Of a DNA stretch of 11,377 bases, positions 838-11,377 are shown piece after piece. The stretch's first letter is position 1, and each line of letters starts with the position of its first letter. Source of the stretch: Melioribacter roseus (GTDB lineage Bacteria; Bacteroidota; Ignavibacteria; Ignavibacteriales; Melioribacteraceae). The notes beneath the pieces were generated by a model, which saw only the letters and a list, made by a program, of their open reading frames with translations, was not told where the DNA came from and did not search any database. The position numbers and the translations under genes are program-made. The stretch spans positions 1-11,377 of the forward strand of contig DYHC01000032.1 in the NCBI GenBank assembly GCA_020724325.1, in the 5' to 3' direction.

Positions 838-3800
838 ATGAAAACCCGATTCTCTCTATTATTTCTTCTATTTATTTTAAATCTTACTTTATCTGCACAA
901 GATATTAAGATTTTATCTTCCAACAGTTCTTCTCTGGTACTTGAATACGTGCCGACATATTCTGATACAACCTATCATCTAATTAATGGTGAGAATTACA
1001 TTAGTCTGAAAATTACAGGGGCTTACATCGATGATTTTTTACAGACTGGAAGAACTCAAAGACTTGTTAGAGAAGTAAATATTGGTGTTCCTTCAGAATT
1101 TGGTAATACAATTCAAATAATTGCCAGTGAATATTCAACATTACCCGGTAAATATATTTTTAATCCTGAATTAGAAATCGATTCTTTATCATTCATCACA
1201 AAATATAATACGGTTACGGATATTAAAAATGATCCGCCTAATGATCTTGTTGTAATTGGTGAATTTGGATTAATCCGTTCTTTGCCGGTACAATCGATAA
1301 AAATTTATCCGGTTCAGAATGATAATGATAGGATAAGAATATACAAACGAATAGTAATCAGTATTTCATTCGCAAGAAGTATGAACGAAACCGAATTGAT
1401 TACCGAAAATTACGTTGAAGGTACTGTAATTAACTGGGAAGTTGCAAAAAGGTGGGGAGTTAAATCTAACGTACATTTATCAAAAACTTCTTCTACATTA
1501 GCAGCCGGAACGTGGTACCGGTTTGAAACACCCGAAGAAGGTATTTATAGAATTGATAGATCATTTCTCCAATCCCTTGGTGCCGATGTAAACAATTTGG
1601 ACCCAAGAACTATTAAGATCTTCAGCAATGGAGGATATAATTTACCAGAGGATTACACTATTCCAACGAACCGGGTTTTTCAGGAAGTTGCAATTTCTGT
1701 GGTTGGAGAATCTGACGGCAAATTCGATTCGGGTGATTACATCCTTTTGTATGGGAGAGGTCCAGAATTCTGGGAATATAATTCCGCCTTTAAAAGAATT
1801 ATGAGAGTAAAGCATTCTTATTCCAAGAAGAATTTTTACTGGTTAACTTTTGGCGGAACAACTGGAAAAAGAATTGCAGAAAAACCTTCATTAAATCAGT
1901 CCGGTGTTCATCAGCAGCAATTTTCTCTTGCATATAGAAGTACTGATAAAGATACAATTAATATCGGCAAAACCGGCAGAGATTATTATGGCGATGAATT
2001 CAATCAGTCGGTTCCAAGCCGGACGTATTTAACAACTCTTAATGGAATTCTGCCTTCAACCCGTATCAGCTACAGATTCAGATTAATAAACGGGTCTTCT
2101 GGTGATGTACCACTAAGAATTGATGAAAGTAATAATCAAATTTATTCAGGAAATATTTTTGGTTTTGGTCAAAATAAATATTCATACGGACAGGATCTTA
2201 TCGGTAATGCATCATTTTCCGGTCCGCTTACAGATGAGAGAAGTAACCTTAGATTTACAGTTACTTCAACTACACCAGGCACAAAAGTATACCTGGATTA
2301 TTTCGAAATAGAATATAGAAGACGATTAAGCGCTGTAAATGATAATTACATTCTCTTTTCTAAAGATACCACGGCAATAATTCAATATACTATACAAAAT
2401 TTTTCTAACAGTTCTATCCAGTTATATGATGTTACAGATTACGCCAACATAAAAATAGTAGCTGGTACATCTATAAGCGGCGGTCAGGTTACTTTCCAGG
2501 CACAGGAAACAATTAATAAAGTATCCAAATATATTGCAGTTAATCAAAATGCATTTAGAACACCTTCTAATGGAGCTGCGGTTACAATTAATGATATTAA
2601 AGGGAATAAATCAGGAACCGAGCTTGTAATTATTTCTCATAAAGATTTACGTGCACAGGTAGAAAGATACGCTGCTTATAGATCCATTCAATCTCCAAAT
2701 AAAATCTCTGCATCAATTTATTATGTAGATGATATTTTAAATGAATTTTCTGCCGGAATGATGGACCCAACCGCAATAAGAGATTTCCTAAAGTACGCTT
2801 ATGATAACTGGCAAATCAAACCGTTTTATGTTCTATTTTTTGGAGATGGAGATTACGATTACTTGAATGTAGAAAAAATGAATAGAAATTTAGTACCTAC
2901 TTATCAATCGGTTGAATCCCTGGACGAAATATCATCATATCCAACTGACGATTATTTTGCGAGGGTTTCCGGCAAAGATCTAAGAATTGATCTTGCAATT
3001 GGCAGATTAAACGTTCAAAAACTTTCTGAAGCCCAAATTGTTGTTGATAAAATTATTAAGTACGAAAACAGCCTCGAAAAAGGATTGTGGCGGTCTACTA
3101 TAACACTTGTTGCAGACGATGGACCACAGGAAGTCGGGGTTGACGATGGAAGTATTCACACAGGTCAATCAGAAAATCTTTCTAGGCGCCGAATCCCTAA
3201 ATTTTTTGATCAGAATAAAATCTACCTTGCTGCTTATCCAACTGTAATTTCCGGATTTGGCAGAAGAAAACCGGAAGTTAATAGAGCCATAATAGACGCT
3301 GTAAATAACGGTACGCTTATTCTAAATTTCTTTGGTCATGGTAATCCTAACGTGTGGACTCATGAAAGTGTTTTTGAAAAATCCTCAACTATACCATTAT
3401 TAAAAAATGATCATTATTTCTTTTTAGCAGCGGCTACGTGTGATTTCGGAAAATATGACGATCCTACTCAACAAAGTTCAACTGAATTGATGATTAACAT
3501 GAAAGATGCCGGTGCTATCGGCGCATTTACTGCTGCAAGAGTTGTATATTCAACTGCCAATGCAGAAATAAACGATTCATTATTCACTTATCTATTAGGT
3601 AAGAAAGAGGTTAATAATTTACCATTTAGAGTTGGAAGAGCTTATTTTCTTGCTAAACAATTTAGAACCGAGGAAAATGATGAAAAATTTCATTTATATG
3701 GCGATCCTACTATAAGATTAGCTCAACCTGTTTTACCCGCATATATCGATTCGATAAATGGGAAAACCTTAAATACATCGGTTCAGATAAGTGCTCTTGG

Positions 3801-4791
3801 AAAAGTTAAAATAAACGGCAATGTAAAAAACATAGACGGAACCAATTCCAATTATTCCGGTGAAGCGATTATTAGCGTGTACGATTCTGAAAGACAGATG
3901 TATTTGAGCGAAATGAATTACAATGTTACTTTTCAGGGCGGTCTTATCTTTAGGGGCAGGACTAATGTTACGAACGGAAAATTCCAAACCGAATTTGTGG
4001 TTCCTAAAGATATCTCCTACGAAAATAAGAACGGTAAAGTATCTGCTTATGTTTTCAACCAATTAAATGATGGTATCGGTTATACTACTAATGTAATTGT
4101 AGGCGGAACAGACCCAAATGCGGTTAACGACGGAAAAGGTCCCGAGATTGCAATCTATTTTGATGACGAATCATTCGAAAGCTCTTACCTTGTAAACCCT
4201 GATTTTACTTTGATTGCAAAGCTATCGGATGAAACCGGCTTAAATACTACTGGAACAGGAATAGGACATAAACTGGAAGGTATTTTGAACAACGATCACT
4301 TTAATACAATTGATCTAACCAATCATTTTATTGGCGACCTTAATTCGGGCGGTAAATCGGGTGTTATCAGATATAAATTTACAGCTATGCCAATCGGAGA
4401 TTACAACATCAAAATAAAAGCATGGGATGTATTCAACAACTTCTCTGTTCAGGAAGCAAATTTTTCTGTAGTAAGTTCATTGAACGGAATTGCTCTTAGA
4501 GATGTTTATAATTATCCGAATCCTTTCTCTTCTAATACAACTTTTACTTTTCAACATAACATTACAGATGCAATTAATGTTAAGATAAAAATTTACACTG
4601 TTGCCGGACGGTTAATAAAAGAGATTGAGGAATTAGACTTGTTAAATAAATTTGTTAGAATTGATTGGGACGGAAGGGATAACGATGGAAATTCTATTGG
4701 AAATGGAACATATCTTTACAAACTTACTGTTGAATCTTCTGACGGACGTTTTAAAAATAATGTTCTTGGAAAATTGGCAGTAATTAAATAA
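838..4791 (+). CDS. porU: Type IX secretion system sortase PorU (C25 family)
   Basis: This 1317-residue protein is the C25-family (gingipain-like) cysteine transpeptidase of the T9SS. In the studied systems PorU removes the C-terminal sorting domain of cargo at the cell surface and attaches the cargo to an anchor, working with PorV. A signal peptide covers residues 1-21 (MKTRFSLLFLLFILNLTLSAQ). A beta-rich N-terminal region includes a PorU-like segment from about 225 (WYRFETPEEGIYRID, then IKIFSNGG). The C25 domain spans about 595-961, starting LVIISHKDL and ending LYGDPTIRL. The expected catalytic pair is present: His834 in FFGHGN and Cys868 in AATCDFGKYDDP. A T9SS type A sorting domain occupies about 1224-1317 (YNYPNPF to GKLAVIK), as expected because PorU itself keeps such a domain. 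It is somewhat longer than the roughly 1160-residue P. gingivalis PorU. The start is set by the signal peptide. No Shine-Dalgarno precedes it. It is the first gene of the plus-strand cluster. Confidence 0.93.
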   Translation: MKTRFSLLFLLFILNLTLSAQDIKILSSNSSSLVLEYVPTYSDTTYHLINGENYISLKITGAYIDDFLQTGRTQRLVREVNIGVPSEFGNTIQIIASEYSTLPGKYIFNPELEIDSLSFITKYNTVTDIKNDPPNDLVVIGEFGLIRSLPVQSIKIYPVQNDNDRIRIYKRIVISISFARSMNETELITENYVEGTVINWEVAKRWGVKSNVHLSKTSSTLAAGTWYRFETPEEGIYRIDRSFLQSLGADVNNLDPRTIKIFSNGGYNLPEDYTIPTNRVFQEVAISVVGESDGKFDSGDYILLYGRGPEFWEYNSAFKRIMRVKHSYSKKNFYWLTFGGTTGKRIAEKPSLNQSGVHQQQFSLAYRSTDKDTINIGKTGRDYYGDEFNQSVPSRTYLTTLNGILPSTRISYRFRLINGSSGDVPLRIDESNNQIYSGNIFGFGQNKYSYGQDLIGNASFSGPLTDERSNLRFTVTSTTPGTKVYLDYFEIEYRRRLSAVNDNYILFSKDTTAIIQYTIQNFSNSSIQLYDVTDYANIKIVAGTSISGGQVTFQAQETINKVSKYIAVNQNAFRTPSNGAAVTINDIKGNKSGTELVIISHKDLRAQVERYAAYRSIQSPNKISASIYYVDDILNEFSAGMMDPTAIRDFLKYAYDNWQIKPFYVLFFGDGDYDYLNVEKMNRNLVPTYQSVESLDEISSYPTDDYFARVSGKDLRIDLAIGRLNVQKLSEAQIVVDKIIKYENSLEKGLWRSTITLVADDGPQEVGVDDGSIHTGQSENLSRRRIPKFFDQNKIYLAAYPTVISGFGRRKPEVNRAIIDAVNNGTLILNFFGHGNPNVWTHESVFEKSSTIPLLKNDHYFFLAAATCDFGKYDDPTQQSSTELMINMKDAGAIGAFTAARVVYSTANAEINDSLFTYLLGKKEVNNLPFRVGRAYFLAKQFRTEENDEKFHLYGDPTIRLAQPVLPAYIDSINGKTLNTSVQISALGKVKINGNVKNIDGTNSNYSGEAIISVYDSERQMYLSEMNYNVTFQGGLIFRGRTNVTNGKFQTEFVVPKDISYENKNGKVSAYVFNQLNDGIGYTTNVIVGGTDPNAVNDGKGPEIAIYFDDESFESSYLVNPDFTLIAKLSDETGLNTTGTGIGHKLEGILNNDHFNTIDLTNHFIGDLNSGGKSGVIRYKFTAMPIGDYNIKIKAWDVFNNFSVQEANFSVVSSLNGIALRDVYNYPNPFSSNTTFTFQHNITDAINVKIKIYTVAGRLIKEIEELDLLNKFVRIDWDGRDNDGNSIGNGTYLYKLTVESSDGRFKNNVLGKLAVIK

Positions 4792-4823
4792 AATTATTCT
4801 CAAGTATGAAATCTACTTTTTAT

Positions 4824-4828
4824 GGAGG
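4824..4828 (+). promoter_or_regulatory. Shine-Dalgarno of porV, decides its start
   Basis: GGAGG sits 7 bases before the ATG at 4836, an ideal spacing. It favours that start over the in-frame ATG at 4806, which has no such site and would add ten residues ahead of the signal peptide. None of the three other plus-strand genes shows a comparable site. Confidence 0.75.
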
Positions 4829-4835
4829 TTATAAA

Positions 4836-6026
4836 ATGAAAAGAATATTTATCATAATGATTCTATGTATTACAGGAATCGGATTGATTAATGATATAAG
4901 AGCACAGGGTGAAGCAGCAGTTCCATTTTTAATTTTAGCACCCGATTCAAGAGCTGGAGGTTTAGGTGAATCCGGTGCCGGTTTGGCAGATAACTCCGCT
5001 GCTATTTTCTGGAATCCAGGTGGAATTGCTTTCCTTACTGGTTCGGAAGTCGGGTTCACTCACAGCAACTGGCTGCCAATGTTCAATCTTGACCTGTTTT
5101 ACGATTATGCTACTTACCGTCAATACATTGAAGATATAAGCGGCAGCTTAACTGCCAGCGTTACATATATGCATTACGGCGAATTCATTAGAACCGGTCC
5201 TGACTCGCCAGACCCAATTGGAACATTCCGTTCTTTTGATGCTGCTTTTACAATAGGTTATGCAACTAAACTAAGCAGCGATTGGGGACTTGGTTTCAAC
5301 TTTAGAGTAATTCACAGTCGGCTTGCAGATAAGCCAACCGCAGCCGAACAAGGTTCTGGTGTTGCAACATCTGTAAGTTTCGATATCGGTACTATGTGGC
5401 GTCCTTCCAAACTGGATTTACCATTAATTGGCGATATCGGAAATAATTTTAGTGTTGGTGTTAATCTTAGCAATATCGGTCCTAAAATATATTACATTGA
5501 TCAGGCACAGGCAGATCCAATTCCTACAAACTTCCGGCTTGGAATTGCAGCCCGGTTATTCGAAGATGAATATAATTCTCTTACATATACGGTTGATTTC
5601 AGCAAGTTACTAGTAGATAAGGGTGAAGCATTTAGAGGAAAGATAGATACTACGGAGACAAAGAAGAGGAAAGATTTCTACGAAACTATTTTTACTGCTT
5701 GGTTCGATCAGCCGTTTAGCGAAGAATTAAGAGATATTGTAACTTCAATGGGTTTAGAATACTGGTATGGAAGTGAAGCCGAAGGATTCAAATTTGCTTT
5801 ACGAGCCGGATTCTTTTATGAGGACCCATCGTTCGGAAACAGAAAATTTGTAACGCTTGGTGCAGGTATTCGTTACGATTCTTATGGATTCGATTTTAGT
5901 TACATTACAACAGACGTATTCAAAGGCGCTGAAAACCATCCATTAAATAACACGCTAAGATTTTCATTACTCATTGGCTGGGGCTCTCAACCTCAAACAA
6001 CACCCGGATTTCCACGCGGTTTGTAA
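4836..6026 (+). CDS. porV: Type IX secretion outer-membrane protein PorV
   Basis: This is a 396-residue outer-membrane beta-barrel of the PorV/LptO family. In studied T9SSs PorV takes cargo from the translocon by its sorting domain and delivers it to the attachment complex with PorU. The protein starts MKRIFIIMILCITGIGL and has a signal peptide ending near IRAQ (residue 24). The family's N-terminal signature follows directly: VPFLILAPDSRAGGLGESG, then NSAAIFWNPGGIAF. The rest is alternating beta-strand sequence (for example FDAAFTIGYATKLSSDWGLG and GNNFSVGVNLSNIGPKIYY), ending in strand-like segments up to a final GFPRGL. Length agrees with the family (about 390). A longer start at 4806 is possible, but the GGAGG at 4824-4828 supports 4836. 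It begins 44 bases after porU and ends 6 bases before the next gene, consistent with an operon. A paralogous PorV-like or PorQ role is the main alternative, but linkage to porU favours PorV. Confidence 0.9.
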   Translation: MKRIFIIMILCITGIGLINDIRAQGEAAVPFLILAPDSRAGGLGESGAGLADNSAAIFWNPGGIAFLTGSEVGFTHSNWLPMFNLDLFYDYATYRQYIEDISGSLTASVTYMHYGEFIRTGPDSPDPIGTFRSFDAAFTIGYATKLSSDWGLGFNFRVIHSRLADKPTAAEQGSGVATSVSFDIGTMWRPSKLDLPLIGDIGNNFSVGVNLSNIGPKIYYIDQAQADPIPTNFRLGIAARLFEDEYNSLTYTVDFSKLLVDKGEAFRGKIDTTETKKRKDFYETIFTAWFDQPFSEELRDIVTSMGLEYWYGSEAEGFKFALRAGFFYEDPSFGNRKFVTLGAGIRYDSYGFDFSYITTDVFKGAENHPLNNTLRFSLLIGWGSQPQTTPGFPRGL

Positions 6027-6032
6027 AAATTT

Positions 6033-9000
6033 ATGAAAAAGTTTCCTCTTTTCATATTATTTATTTTTTTATTGGGCAGTCTATCTGCCCAATCGTTTGT
6101 TAATGCTATTGATCGGAATAATGGCGGTATTGCAGCTTATTCCGGCAATAGATTAATTAAGATTTTGGCTGTGATGGTTGAATTCCAGGAAGATAAGTAT
6201 GATGGAACAACCGGCAATGGAAAGTTTGGTTCCCACTTTACAAAAGCTTACGGTGATACAATATTAGATCCGCTTCCTCATAATGCTGATTATTTTGAGG
6301 ATCATCTCGAATTTGCAAAAAATTATTTCAATAAGGTATCTAAAGGGAAAGTTCAAGTAGAATATAAAGTTCTTCCTCAGGTAATCACAGTTTCTAAAAT
6401 GATGCGCGAATATGTTCCGGCTTTCAATTCTAACAATAACACTCCGCTCGGAAATTTTGCAAAAGAAGTCTGGCAGCTTGCAGATCAGAAGTTTACCAAT
6501 ATTAGGTTTGCTGATTATGATCTGTTTATAATTTTCCACGCCGGTATCAGTAATGCATTTTCTTATGGCGCACCGTTAATTAACCGTAACATGCCTTCGT
6601 TATATTTGAGTAAATCGGCATTTAAGAAAATTTTTGGAAATCAGTTTAACGGAATTGCAGTCAACAACAATTCATTTCTGATAGATAACACAATCATTAT
6701 GCCAGAAACGGAATCCAGAGAGGCAGCAGCAATTGACGGCTCTTTAGTTTTGGCAGAATTATCAATTAATGGTTTACTCGTAAGCAACATTGCGTCACAT
6801 ATCGGTCTGCCGGATCTATTCAATACGTCAACCGGAAAAAGTGCAATAGGACGATTTGGCTTGATGGACCCGCAGTCAATCTTTGCTAACTCTGGAATGT
6901 TTCCGCCAGAACCTTCACCATGGGAAAAAATTTATTTGGGTTGGGAATCACCTGTAACATTAAATCCGGGTAATAGAAAAGTTACAATTGCTGCAAGGAA
7001 TATTGCATCGCAGAACGATACAACACTTCTAAAAATTCCGATTAATTCTACCGAATATTTTCTTGTTGAAAACCGTGCGCAGGATTCTAATAACGATAAA
7101 GTGAAAGTTACTTATAAAAGGAGCGGACAAATTTACACGAAGGTAATAGAGCTTGATACCAGCGGCGTTTATGTTATTGAACGTAGATTCAAAAATGGAA
7201 TAGAAGGAGGAGTAGTAATTGATGTTGACGAATTTGATGCAGGTTTACCTGGCAGCGGAATTGTTATTTGGCACATTGATGAAAAAGTAATAAACGAAAA
7301 AATTATTGATAATAAAATTAATGCTGATTTTGATAGAAAAGGAGTAGACGTTGAAGAAGCAGACGGAATTCAAGATATTGGTGAAACGTTTGTATCGCCT
7401 ATTGACGAAATTATTGGCGAAGGAAGTAAGGAGGACTTCTGGTTCAAAGAGAACAAAGCCAGATTGTATAAGAACAGGTTCTCTTATAATTCTAAACCGA
7501 ACAGCAGATCTAACGATGGTACAAACAGTTTGATTACACTAGAAAATTTTTCCCCTCTCGCAAATAAAATTTCTTTTGACTTAGTATTTGGCAGCAATGA
7601 AATTACTCTAAACAGAAGTGTAAAACTGCCTCACTTAAAAAATCTTTTCTCTATTTCATCTCTTCAAATTGGCAACAGCTTCTGGACCTATTTACTTGAC
7701 GGGACCGATCTTGTACGTGCAGATGCTTACAGCGGTAATTACTCTGCAATAAAAAATTTCAGTTCATTCAAGCCGGCTGCTTTCAAAGATGGCGCTAATG
7801 AATTCGTAATTGGAGCTAATGGTAAAAAGCTGAGTATAATTTCTACAATAAACAATGTTTACAAATTAACTGAATATTTGTTCACTGCCGATATAACAGC
7901 CGCACCTGTAATTGTAAAAAGCGGAGGTGTAATTAAAGGGCTTATAGGAACTTCTGATGGAAAAGTTTATCGGGTTGATGTTCTTGAATCAATTTCATCC
8001 AATCTTATTAAAGGAATCGTTGCTCTTACTACTGATAATAAACCGGTTAAACAAATTGCATCTTACGAAGATTACTTCTCAATTATTACAGATAATAGCT
8101 TTACAGATTCGAACGGAAAGACGCTCATTCTAAATCAAAAATTAAAACGGATTGCTCTTACAAAAAATATTGATGGGAAATTTGTAAATGTAATTCTTGC
8201 AGAGGGAAATTATTTTTATATAGTTATAGATGGTCAGTTAACCTCATCTTTTAGTATTCCGGTTAATGAAATATCTTCATTTTCTTTAGCAGATCTTTTT
8301 GCTGATGGAAATAATTACATTCTCTTTAATGCTAAATCTAAAATTTACGCTGTAAACTTTTTAGGAGTTTCAGCTAATAATTTCCCATTCGAAACAGAAT
8401 CTGTTTATTCATTAATTAGTTCTCCGCTAGTTATCGATCTGAATAATGACGGCAATTCAGAAGTCCTTTCGTTTAATTCAAAAGGCGGTCTTTATGCTGT
8501 AACAGCAGCAAGTGGAAAACTCTTAAATCCATATCCGGTAAACGTGATTAATAATACTAATATTATTCCTGTTATCATTTTAGAAGAATTGCCGGCTATG
8601 GGTCCCATCGCAAAATTCAAGCCGGTTCTTCCGGCTCTAAATGATACTGGAATTTTGGCATTCTGGTCTTTATCAAATTTAAGCGGCAAAGAATATTGGA
8701 TTAATGAATTTGCCGGTTCTTCAAACAGCTCTTATGTTTCTGCTGCAGATTCCAAATCTAAAACAGCTGATTATTTCCCGCCAGAAAAAGCATATAACTG
8801 GCCTAATCCCGTTTACGGTAACGAAACAAATATCAGGTATTTTGTTGCCGAAGATTCAGAAGTGTCTATTAAAATTTTTGATCTATCCGGGGATTTAGTT
8901 GCAAATCTTATCTCAAAAGCAACAGGCGGAATTGATAACGAAGTTAGATGGAATGTATCTGGAATTCAGAGCGGAGTTTACTACGCAAGAATAGAAGCAA

Positions 9001-9056
9001 AAAGCAGTACTGGTAAAAGAGCCAATAAGTTAATTAAGATAGCTGTAATAAAATAA
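6033..9056 (+). CDS. Secreted M6-peptidase-like protein without HExxH, T9SS sorting domain
   Basis: This 1007-residue T9SS cargo has the body of an M6 (immune inhibitor A-like) metallopeptidase. The signal peptide is residues 1-20 (MKKFPLFILFIFLLGSLSAQ). The M6-like part runs from about 43 (IKILAVMVEFQ) and has FNKVSKGKVQVEY, GLPDLF (258-263), then GRFGLMD and SPWEKIYLGW. Further M6 hallmarks follow: YFLVENRAQ (from 342), GSGIVIWHIDEK (from 407) and GVDVEEADG (from 437). The zinc site, normally HExxH just before GLPDL, reads SNIASHI here (251-257). The glutamate and the first histidine are missing, so hydrolysis is unlikely. A beta-propeller or VCBS-like stretch (IDLNNDGNSEV, about 801-811) precedes a type A sorting domain from about 920 (AYNWPNPVYG to KIAVIK). 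It starts 6 bases after porV and has no Shine-Dalgarno. It is predicted to be surface-attached. Its role is unknown. Binding or a T9SS accessory task is inference. Confidence 0.8.
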   Translation: MKKFPLFILFIFLLGSLSAQSFVNAIDRNNGGIAAYSGNRLIKILAVMVEFQEDKYDGTTGNGKFGSHFTKAYGDTILDPLPHNADYFEDHLEFAKNYFNKVSKGKVQVEYKVLPQVITVSKMMREYVPAFNSNNNTPLGNFAKEVWQLADQKFTNIRFADYDLFIIFHAGISNAFSYGAPLINRNMPSLYLSKSAFKKIFGNQFNGIAVNNNSFLIDNTIIMPETESREAAAIDGSLVLAELSINGLLVSNIASHIGLPDLFNTSTGKSAIGRFGLMDPQSIFANSGMFPPEPSPWEKIYLGWESPVTLNPGNRKVTIAARNIASQNDTTLLKIPINSTEYFLVENRAQDSNNDKVKVTYKRSGQIYTKVIELDTSGVYVIERRFKNGIEGGVVIDVDEFDAGLPGSGIVIWHIDEKVINEKIIDNKINADFDRKGVDVEEADGIQDIGETFVSPIDEIIGEGSKEDFWFKENKARLYKNRFSYNSKPNSRSNDGTNSLITLENFSPLANKISFDLVFGSNEITLNRSVKLPHLKNLFSISSLQIGNSFWTYLLDGTDLVRADAYSGNYSAIKNFSSFKPAAFKDGANEFVIGANGKKLSIISTINNVYKLTEYLFTADITAAPVIVKSGGVIKGLIGTSDGKVYRVDVLESISSNLIKGIVALTTDNKPVKQIASYEDYFSIITDNSFTDSNGKTLILNQKLKRIALTKNIDGKFVNVILAEGNYFYIVIDGQLTSSFSIPVNEISSFSLADLFADGNNYILFNAKSKIYAVNFLGVSANNFPFETESVYSLISSPLVIDLNNDGNSEVLSFNSKGGLYAVTAASGKLLNPYPVNVINNTNIIPVIILEELPAMGPIAKFKPVLPALNDTGILAFWSLSNLSGKEYWINEFAGSSNSSYVSAADSKSKTADYFPPEKAYNWPNPVYGNETNIRYFVAEDSEVSIKIFDLSGDLVANLISKATGGIDNEVRWNVSGIQSGVYYARIEAKSSTGKRANKLIKIAVIK

Positions 9057-9065
9057 TTGAGATGA

Positions 9066-11377
9066 ATGTTTATTAGTAATTACATAAAGAGAAATCCTGG
9101 AATTAATTTTTTATCTAACCAATTGATCCTTTGGATAATTTTATTTGTTTTTCTGCCGGTTATAATTTTTTCGCAGATAAATCAATTTAATCCGGATTAC
9201 AAATGGCTTACAATAAAAGGCAAGCATGTAAGGGTTCACTATCACGAAGAGGCAGAACGGACAGCACGGACGGTTGCTAAAATAGCAGACGAAATTTGGG
9301 AGCCGGTTACTTCACTTTATCAATATGAACCGGATGTAATTGATTTTGTTATAAAAGATATAGACGATTATTCTAACGGCGCTACATTCTTCTTCGATAA
9401 CAAAATTGAAATCTGGTCTTCATCATTAGATTTTGATTTGCGCGGTACTCATAACTGGCTTAGGAATGTAATTACGCATGAATTCACACATATGGTTCAG
9501 ATTCAAGCCGGTATGAAATTATCTAGAACACTTCCCGTTTTTTATCTGCAATTTCTAAATTACGAAGACAAACGCCGTCCAGATATTCTTTACGGCTTTC
9601 CTAATTTCATTGCATCTTATCCTGTACCAATGATTAACATTCCGGCATGGTTTGCTGAAGGAACTGCTCAATACATGCGCAAAGAGTTTAATTACGATAA
9701 TTGGGATACACATCGCGATATGATTTTAAGATCTTCTGCGCTCGATAATAAAATGCTTACCTGGAATCAAATGGGCGTGTTCGGTAAAACAAGTCTTGGC
9801 AACGAATCGGTTTATAACTCCGGATTTGCTCTAACGCGCTACATCTCTCAGAAATATGGCGAGGATAAGTTGAGAGAAGTAACTAACAAACTTGGCAACC
9901 TTACTACATTTACAATTGATGCTGCTTTCCAGGAAGTTATTGGTAAAAATGGAATTGAGATCTATAATGAATGGTCGGATTTTCTGAAACGAGATTATAA
10001 AAAAAGAATTGCCGAAGTAGAAGAGAATTTGATTACCGGGGATACTATCGTATCAACCGGGTTTGGAAATTTTTATCCCGTCTATTCAACCGATGGAAAC
10101 AATATCCTCTATATTTCAAATAAAACGAGCGATTACTTCAGCTTATCATCTGTTTTTTTATACGACATAGATTCAAAGAAAGAAAAGAAAATTGTTTCTA
10201 ATGTAAGATCAACAGTAAGTTTTATTCCGAACGAAAACAAAATTGTTTATGCCAAGTTGAGCAGTGATAATCCACGTATGAGTAATATTCATGATCTTTA
10301 TGTTTATGATATCGGCAAAGAAAAAGAAGAGCGCATTACTTTTGGTATTAGAGCTAATAATCCATCGGTCTCTAATAACGGTAAGAAAATTACATTTATT
10401 TTTCAGAATGACGGAACTGTTAATATTGGAGTGTGTGATATCAACGGAAAGAATTTTAAGAAACTTACTTTCTTTGATAATGGTGAACAACTTTACAATC
10501 CAAAATTTTCTAAGGACGATTCCTTTATCCTGTTCGATTATTCATACCATGATAACCGTGATATAGGAAGAGTTGATACCAATGGAAGTAATTATGCGTT
10601 AATTACAGAATCGAATGCAGATGAACGCCATCCTTTCATGGCTAATAGTGGCGTTCTCTATTATTCAAGTGATGAAACGGGTATTTTCAATATTTATTCG
10701 ATTAACCTTGAAACTGGAATTAAGAAGCAGCACACAAATGTAACCGGCGGTGCTTTTATGCCCTCGGTTAATAATAAAGGGGATTTGGTTTATGCCGGCT
10801 ACACTTCGGATGGTTACAAAATATTTATGCTTAGAAGCGAAGAGCAGGGGAAAGTAAACCCGAACAAAAAGTATACATGGATTAATAATCCGCCGCTGGA
10901 TGAAGATAAACCTAATGGTGACATAAGCAAGTTCGATTTAAATCTTCTCCGTAACTTCAATGATTTTGAATTACCCGAATATAATGTAGAAAAGTATTCC
11001 GGTTTCTTTTCTAAAATAAGTTTCTTTCCTTTTATTAGAATTGATAATTATAACACATCAAGTTCTGGCTGGGATAGAATTAAACCGGGATTTTATTTTA
11101 CATCCAGTGATGTGCTTAACCGTTTTTCAATATTTGGAAGCGCTTCGCTAAATAAAAAAATGGAACGCGATCTCTATTTCTTGTTTGAATACCGCGATAA
11201 ATTTCCGTTGATTCACTCATTTGGTTTAAAACCTGAATTTGGCGTTGAACTATTCAGCATAAGCAGAAAAGCTAACTTCGATTTGCAGTTCGGAATCGAT
11301 TCAACTTTTACTCCGCCAAGAATTGACTATTATGTTCCGGTTGAAGTTACTTATAATCTGTTCGAAGTTGATTTTAG
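9066..11377 (+). CDS. Gluzincin metallopeptidase with TolB-like propeller, incomplete at right edge
   Basis: An open frame of 770 codons begins at the ATG at 9066 (MFISNYIKRNPGINFLSNQL) and runs off the window without a stop. A hydrophobic segment at about 19-37 (LILWIILFVFLPVIIFSQ) looks like a signal peptide with a long n-region. The peptidase domain carries HEFTH (138-142) in VITHEFTHMVQIQAG and a candidate third zinc ligand Glu198 in WFAEGTAQYM. This fits the gluzincin pattern of the MA-like peptidase families, so it is probably active. From about residue 337 come repeated PD40/TolB-type propeller blades (YPVYSTDGNNILYISN, NPSVSNNGKKITFIF, YNPKFSKDDSFILFDY). After about 646 the sequence turns to alternating, aromatic-rich strands that may begin an outer-membrane barrel. 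It lies 9 bases after the previous gene and is probably in the same operon. An in-frame TAG closes the neighbouring ATG at 9062 after four codons. Substrate is unknown. Confidence 0.82.
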   Translation, partial: MFISNYIKRNPGINFLSNQLILWIILFVFLPVIIFSQINQFNPDYKWLTIKGKHVRVHYHEEAERTARTVAKIADEIWEPVTSLYQYEPDVIDFVIKDIDDYSNGATFFFDNKIEIWSSSLDFDLRGTHNWLRNVITHEFTHMVQIQAGMKLSRTLPVFYLQFLNYEDKRRPDILYGFPNFIASYPVPMINIPAWFAEGTAQYMRKEFNYDNWDTHRDMILRSSALDNKMLTWNQMGVFGKTSLGNESVYNSGFALTRYISQKYGEDKLREVTNKLGNLTTFTIDAAFQEVIGKNGIEIYNEWSDFLKRDYKKRIAEVEENLITGDTIVSTGFGNFYPVYSTDGNNILYISNKTSDYFSLSSVFLYDIDSKKEKKIVSNVRSTVSFIPNENKIVYAKLSSDNPRMSNIHDLYVYDIGKEKEERITFGIRANNPSVSNNGKKITFIFQNDGTVNIGVCDINGKNFKKLTFFDNGEQLYNPKFSKDDSFILFDYSYHDNRDIGRVDTNGSNYALITESNADERHPFMANSGVLYYSSDETGIFNIYSINLETGIKKQHTNVTGGAFMPSVNNKGDLVYAGYTSDGYKIFMLRSEEQGKVNPNKKYTWINNPPLDEDKPNGDISKFDLNLLRNFNDFELPEYNVEKYSGFFSKISFFPFIRIDNYNTSSSGWDRIKPGFYFTSSDVLNRFSIFGSASLNKKMERDLYFLFEYRDKFPLIHSFGLKPEFGVELFSISRKANFDLQFGIDSTFTPPRIDYYVPVEVTYNLFEVDF

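Follow-up and report, generated by a model that had tools for sequence, protein, structure and literature searches.

Catalogues of type IX secretion system (T9SS) components have been drawn mostly from Porphyromonas and Flavobacterium. In the zinc-binding motif HExxHxxGxxD the two histidines and the aspartate are the zinc ligands. The closest enzymes to the protein considered here are the active family M6 peptidases of the kind of immune inhibitor A, for which 4yu5 and 4yu6 are solved structures. On the side of the secretion system, excerpts of PMC12618676 describe PorV as the protein that receives type A cargos at the translocon and recognizes all type A domains, while excerpts of PMC8545088 describe PorU and PorZ as surface proteins held by outer-membrane barrels, with the sorting domain of PorZ escaping cleavage by PorU.

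The stretch of DNA that we analyzed (11,377 nt, hereafter the window) carries four main ORFs, all on the plus strand, in the order porU, porV, M6i and MA (Table 1). A partial acetaldehyde dehydrogenase (acetylating) gene, cut at the window edge, occupies positions 2-505 on the minus strand; its best match is TIGR02518 with 217.9 bits, which is under the whole-protein cut-off. In an NCBIfam profile search the M6i protein matched NF052323 (T9SSA_dep_M6i; cut-off 600 bits) across model positions 3-1043 of 1043, and is thus a member of an already named family rather than of a new one. Given that this model bears the name "T9SS-dependent M6-like inactivated metalloprotease", the family was already known as an inactivated protease. 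We found no difference between the window protein and NF052323; the name gives no function, and the linkage to PorV was worked out here. What is new is the tie to porV and the persistence of the protein in genomes without the sortase. Among the literature matches listed, no paper on M6i was found by title or abstract opening, and PMC8714846 contains "M6 family" once.

Table 1. Features of the window, with coordinates, strand and the basis of each assignment
Feature	Positions	Strand	Basis
PorU sortase	838..4791	+	NF033707 976.4 bits, cut-off 420; also Peptidase_C25
PorV, T9SS outer-membrane shuttle	4806..6026	+	NF033710 260.8 bits, cut-off 250
M6-like inactivated metalloprotease (M6i), 1007 aa	6033..9056	+	ORF; NF052323 963.4 bits over residues 4-1007
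Probable signal peptide, residues 1-20	6033..6092	+	By eye: hydrophobic stretch ending LSAQ
M6 peptidase-fold domain, residues 22-530	6096..7622	+	Predicted fold
SNIAS in place of HExxH, residues 251-255	6783..6797	+	Aligned homologues and active M6 comparators
Asp261 of GLPDL, presumed third-ligand position, kept	6813..6815	+	208/208 filled rows
Met278, Met-turn, kept	6864..6866	+	203/209 filled rows
Beta-propeller, about residues 525-885, limits approximate	7605..8687	+	
T9SS type A C-terminal sorting domain, residues 923-1002	8799..9038	+	TIGR04183 31.1 bits (cut-off 23); PF18962 34.6 bits (cut-off 27)
MA, HExxH peptidase-like and TolB-like propeller protein	9066..11375	+	Truncated by window end

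M6i differs from the active M6 peptidases in several respects: the zinc-binding and catalytic residues of HExxH are missing, a propeller and a T9SS sorting domain follow the peptidase domain, and the match to the active M6 model TIGR03296 (66.1 bits) falls below its cut-off of 110.8. The predicted model nevertheless has the M6 fold, and all six M6 motifs quoted in the preliminary description (GLPDLF, GRFGLMD, SPWEKIYLGW, YFLVENR, IVIWHIDE and VEEADG) are present in the translation. The same description had claimed a signal peptide and a sorting domain. The latter is recognized by both TIGR04183 and PF18962; the former is probable as judged by eye, and the glutamine at its end, Q20, is conserved among homologues. 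Export via the T9SS is predicted. The M6i sequence drew no match at an E-value of up to 1 in a search of solved structures. The model of its C half aligns with single-propeller chains; PorZ structures are absent among the best 50 structure matches for this half, an absence that excludes nothing. PF21544, the N-terminal propeller of PorZ, is not among the Pfam matches of M6i at an E-value of up to 1.

The central feature of this protein is the sequence SNIASHI at residues 251-257, which had been singled out from the translation as standing where HExxH belongs and is borne out here (nucleotides 6783-6803, inside the interval 6780-6821 originally marked). We aligned 211 rows, comprising the window, the ORFs of 79 of the 80 genome-scan loci (L018, with an open frame of only 146 aa, was omitted), 120 of 2325 database matches and 11 ORFs from other genomes. 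In three M6 proteins of other members of the phylum in our sample, all of which score over the TIGR03296 cut-off, HEYGH or HEMGH aligns at this point and the GLPD that follows is retained. This fixes the register: it is SNIAS that stands for HExxH, with the next two residues, HI, outside the motif. The five columns are all filled in 207 rows, the four others being presumably L048, with a three-residue gap, and L010, L058 and P0012, in which the region is absent. Among the 207, histidine at 251, glutamate at 252 and histidine at 255 each occur in none (0/207); these rows overlap to some extent, P0001 being the window itself and some locus ORFs possibly coinciding with database proteins, so that 204 of them are distinct. 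Nowhere in the 211 aligned rows is there an HExxHxxG. The position of the second histidine is filled in 208 rows by serine (170), asparagine (27), threonine (10) or glycine (1). The claim that the catalytic glutamate and at least one histidine are gone therefore stands and was an understatement, as alignment with active M6 proteins indicates the loss of the glutamate and of both histidines. Asp261, which we take to be the third zinc ligand of HExxHxxGxxD, is invariant, and the Met-turn methionine nearly so (Table 1). A sequencing error or a local mutation is ruled out by the same 0/207 count. The site is lost in every relative examined. The earlier suggestion of a retained non-catalytic function rather than gene decay is supported. 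On this comparison of sequences M6i is probably a pseudopeptidase throughout the relatives examined.

The five columns that replace HExxH are about as conserved (0.653) as the N domain as a whole (0.635), and thus offer no hint that this very spot has acquired a new function; the value is raised over residues 244-262 (0.781), mostly owing to GLPDL, which is common to active M6 proteins. The propeller is the least conserved part of M6i (0.391). Separate alignments were made of the two halves, A1 with 64 of 65 listed N-half pieces (all but L063) and A2 with 67 of 68 listed C-half pieces (all but L088), each with the window added and with short and near-identical pieces removed beforehand. We also considered M6i as an enzyme with a rebuilt site that holds zinc or another metal on other residues. 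Asp261 is conserved, and so are His169 and His414, the only histidines of the N domain conserved at 95% or more; both histidines, however, are shared with the single active M6 protein compared, and do not look like replacements. A rebuilt metal site is accordingly exceedingly unlikely.

In a survey of 148 genomes (the window's own, 67% complete, and 147 others with a completeness of at least 90%), M6i was found in 61, with 57 over the NF052323 cut-off and four diverged. The latter (G001, G006, G011 and G016, family f12) score 358-388 bits over the N half, and the whole protein from G011 (L093), with an M6 match under cut-off and a sorting domain, reaches 441 bits against the cut-off of 600. 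We counted all four as M6i since they stand directly behind PorV and PorU and since both diverged sequences that were read, from G011 and G006 (L104), show the lost HExxH. There is one M6i place per genome (over cut-off, or as one N-half match in the four diverged). The 61 genomes belong to 13 families, and presence is all-or-none by family among sampled genomes whose family is shown; ten genomes with no match are absent from the M6i listing; two of them, G130 and G134, belong to f21, and for the remaining eight no family is given. The SprA translocon is found in 117 of the 148 genomes, including all 61 with M6i, and the 56 SprA-positive genomes without M6i indicate that the T9SS works without it elsewhere. 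An active M6 protein in the PorV slot was sought as an intermediate: none of the 13 TIGR03296 places (in 9/148 genomes) lies beside PorV, and one of the genomes, G048, has no PorV match. A link to PorU2, suggested by the neighbouring NCBIfam accession, was not supported, as NF052324 is over cut-off in 14/148 genomes and M6i is present only in G079 of these.

The gene neighbourhood of M6i is strikingly constant. In 60 of the 61 genomes porV lies directly 5' of M6i on the same strand, the exception being G137, where M6i stands apart from porV. Further upstream, porU is present in 52/61; of the remaining nine, four (G061, G081, G108 and G119) lack PorU over cut-off, G005 has it in convergent orientation, and G079, G125, G133 and G137 have it on another contig. 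These genome counts, including that for PorZ below (57), were compiled by hand from match listings rather than by script. Among the fetched loci, 82 of 92 had enough upstream sequence to be eligible, and PorV adjoins M6i in 81 of these, 78 by script and three (L012, L033 and L048) from match coordinates, as the script's open-frame walk ended early there but the PorV matches stop 6-9 nt short of the start of M6i; the one genuine exception is L097. PorU is found in 60/74 fetched loci. The spacing between the PorV stop codon and the first in-frame M6i start codon, 6 nt in the window, has a median of 9 (range 2-216) and is within 50 in 54 of the 78 loci. The 82-locus count is no random sample, since L089-L098 and L104-L105 entered it on account of their unusual contexts and there is overlap with the survey (L079 and L090 come from a single assembly). 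From the linkage in 60/61 genomes we infer that M6i binds PorV.

M6i and PorV also persist together where PorU is missing. The four survey genomes without PorU over cut-off (99-100% complete) also lack PorZ over cut-off, and they keep SprA, PorV and M6i. We examined nine further genomes, hand-chosen via their loci (seven with PorU-less loci and two with PorU; completeness not given). All nine are SprA-positive over cut-off, with SprA in pieces in two; seven lack both PorU and PorZ over cut-off, and L068 and L082 have both. As L079 is the same assembly as G081 and is counted in both sets, the genomes of this kind beyond the survey are L069, L073, L076, L081, L086 and L088. One of them, L076, is Rhodohalobacter halophilus strain JZ3C29, a strain and not a metagenome-assembled genome. 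In L081 (Gracilimonas sp.) a 103-aa ORF at 8322-8630 on the plus strand, directly before PorV, matches PorU at its C-terminal end alone (profile positions 1010-1095) and is apparently a remnant of a lost porU. The PorU-less state requires at least two changes on the M6i tree, in which long outgroup branches and odd composition were flagged, and these amount to two losses only if porU was never regained. The PorU-less genomes G061, G081, G108 and G119 encode 8, 7, 32 and 26 type A sorting domains, as compared with 66 in G089, of the same genus as G061, and 18, 32, 37 and 46 in four other relatives. Thus, their T9SS still has several cargos, and a low number is no rule. Genomes without PorU and PorZ apparently possess a T9SS lacking its sortase arm.

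These observations bear on what M6i might do. One proposal, that it contributes to the PorU sortase reaction or keeps it in check, or else replaces PorZ as the lipopolysaccharide-handing partner, draws on the upstream porU and on the resemblance to PorZ, which in the excerpts of PMC8545088 is likewise a T9SS-linked protein of propellers and a sorting domain. Those excerpts give PorZ two propellers, however, in contrast to the single-propeller alignments of the M6i C half, and M6i further differs in its peptidase-fold domain and in lacking a PF21544 match. PF21544 itself is over cut-off in 57/61 M6i genomes, the window's own included, and this co-occurrence excludes a replacement of PorZ, while the persistence of M6i where PorU and PorZ are both gone makes regulation of the sortase unlikely. 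The proposal is already largely refuted, and we consider it highly unlikely. A pairing with the downstream gene, with M6i as the pseudo-enzyme chaperone or inhibitor of MA, is very unlikely. The window MA has a PF13485 (Peptidase_MA-like) match of 27.3 bits, below the cut-off of 32.4, and contains HEFTH; MA lies within 69 of the 82 eligible loci, and an HExxH is found in the first 300 residues of 67/67 MA ORFs of at least 400 aa, although the first match in three of these, YQHEPDHKV, could be a different site. Against such a pairing, M6i occurs without a nearby MA in the other 13 loci, and the two proteins match different peptidase families.

The main rival to our best reading is a favoured cargo in the porV operon: M6i would be a conserved T9SS cargo, possibly an abundant one (an adhesin or receptor at the surface, for instance), that is produced alongside its shuttle from the porV operon and has no role in secretion. 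Its sorting domain is of the ordinary type A, the propeller is a common binding fold and the gene linkage fits this too; moreover, the excerpts of PMC12618676 note frequent linkage of type B cargos to shuttle genes of their own. The same excerpts, however, have type A cargos sharing one PorV, which is taken to be in excess or recycled, and there is hence no general need to link one cargo to it. The single place per genome and the all-or-none distribution by family, where shown, also seem more typical of machinery. We regard the favoured cargo as possible, if rather doubtful.

Given that the M6i gene is almost always right behind porV, the protein is probably a non-cutting partner of the secretion machine. 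Our best reading, to which we give about an even chance, is that M6i is a non-catalytic component of the T9SS of Ignavibacteria and Balneolota/Rhodothermota, bound to PorV at the cell surface. As a dead M6 peptidase joined to a beta-propeller and a type A sorting domain, it would be exported through the SprA translocon, collected by PorV via the sorting domain and would then stay on the outer membrane as a dedicated partner of PorV. There it may be an accessory part that acts with the shuttle or the translocon and not in the sorting step of PorU and PorZ. The dead peptidase domain would offer a binding surface, and M6i may help other cargos. By analogy with PorU and PorZ, M6i looks like a third barrel-held surface protein, tied to PorV instead of to the sortase. 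A bolder version, which we put forward as a real though tentative possibility, makes M6i an unrecognized core part of the T9SS in both Ignavibacteria and Balneolota/Rhodothermota: what was once a protease fold would now be a subunit that is attached to PorV, has a binding or guiding role and survives the loss of the sortase. In the lineages that lost PorU and PorZ, the T9SS would then operate without a sortase, and the cargo would be dealt with by PorV and M6i.

A porV-linked pseudopeptidase that spans other T9SS lineages and outlasts both the sortase and PorZ suggests that the T9SS has lineage-specific machine parts. The PorU-less genomes constitute a natural experiment on PorV without PorU. 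With M6i present in 61 genomes, and PorU and PorZ each missing from four of them, the role of M6i would be directly testable by deletion.
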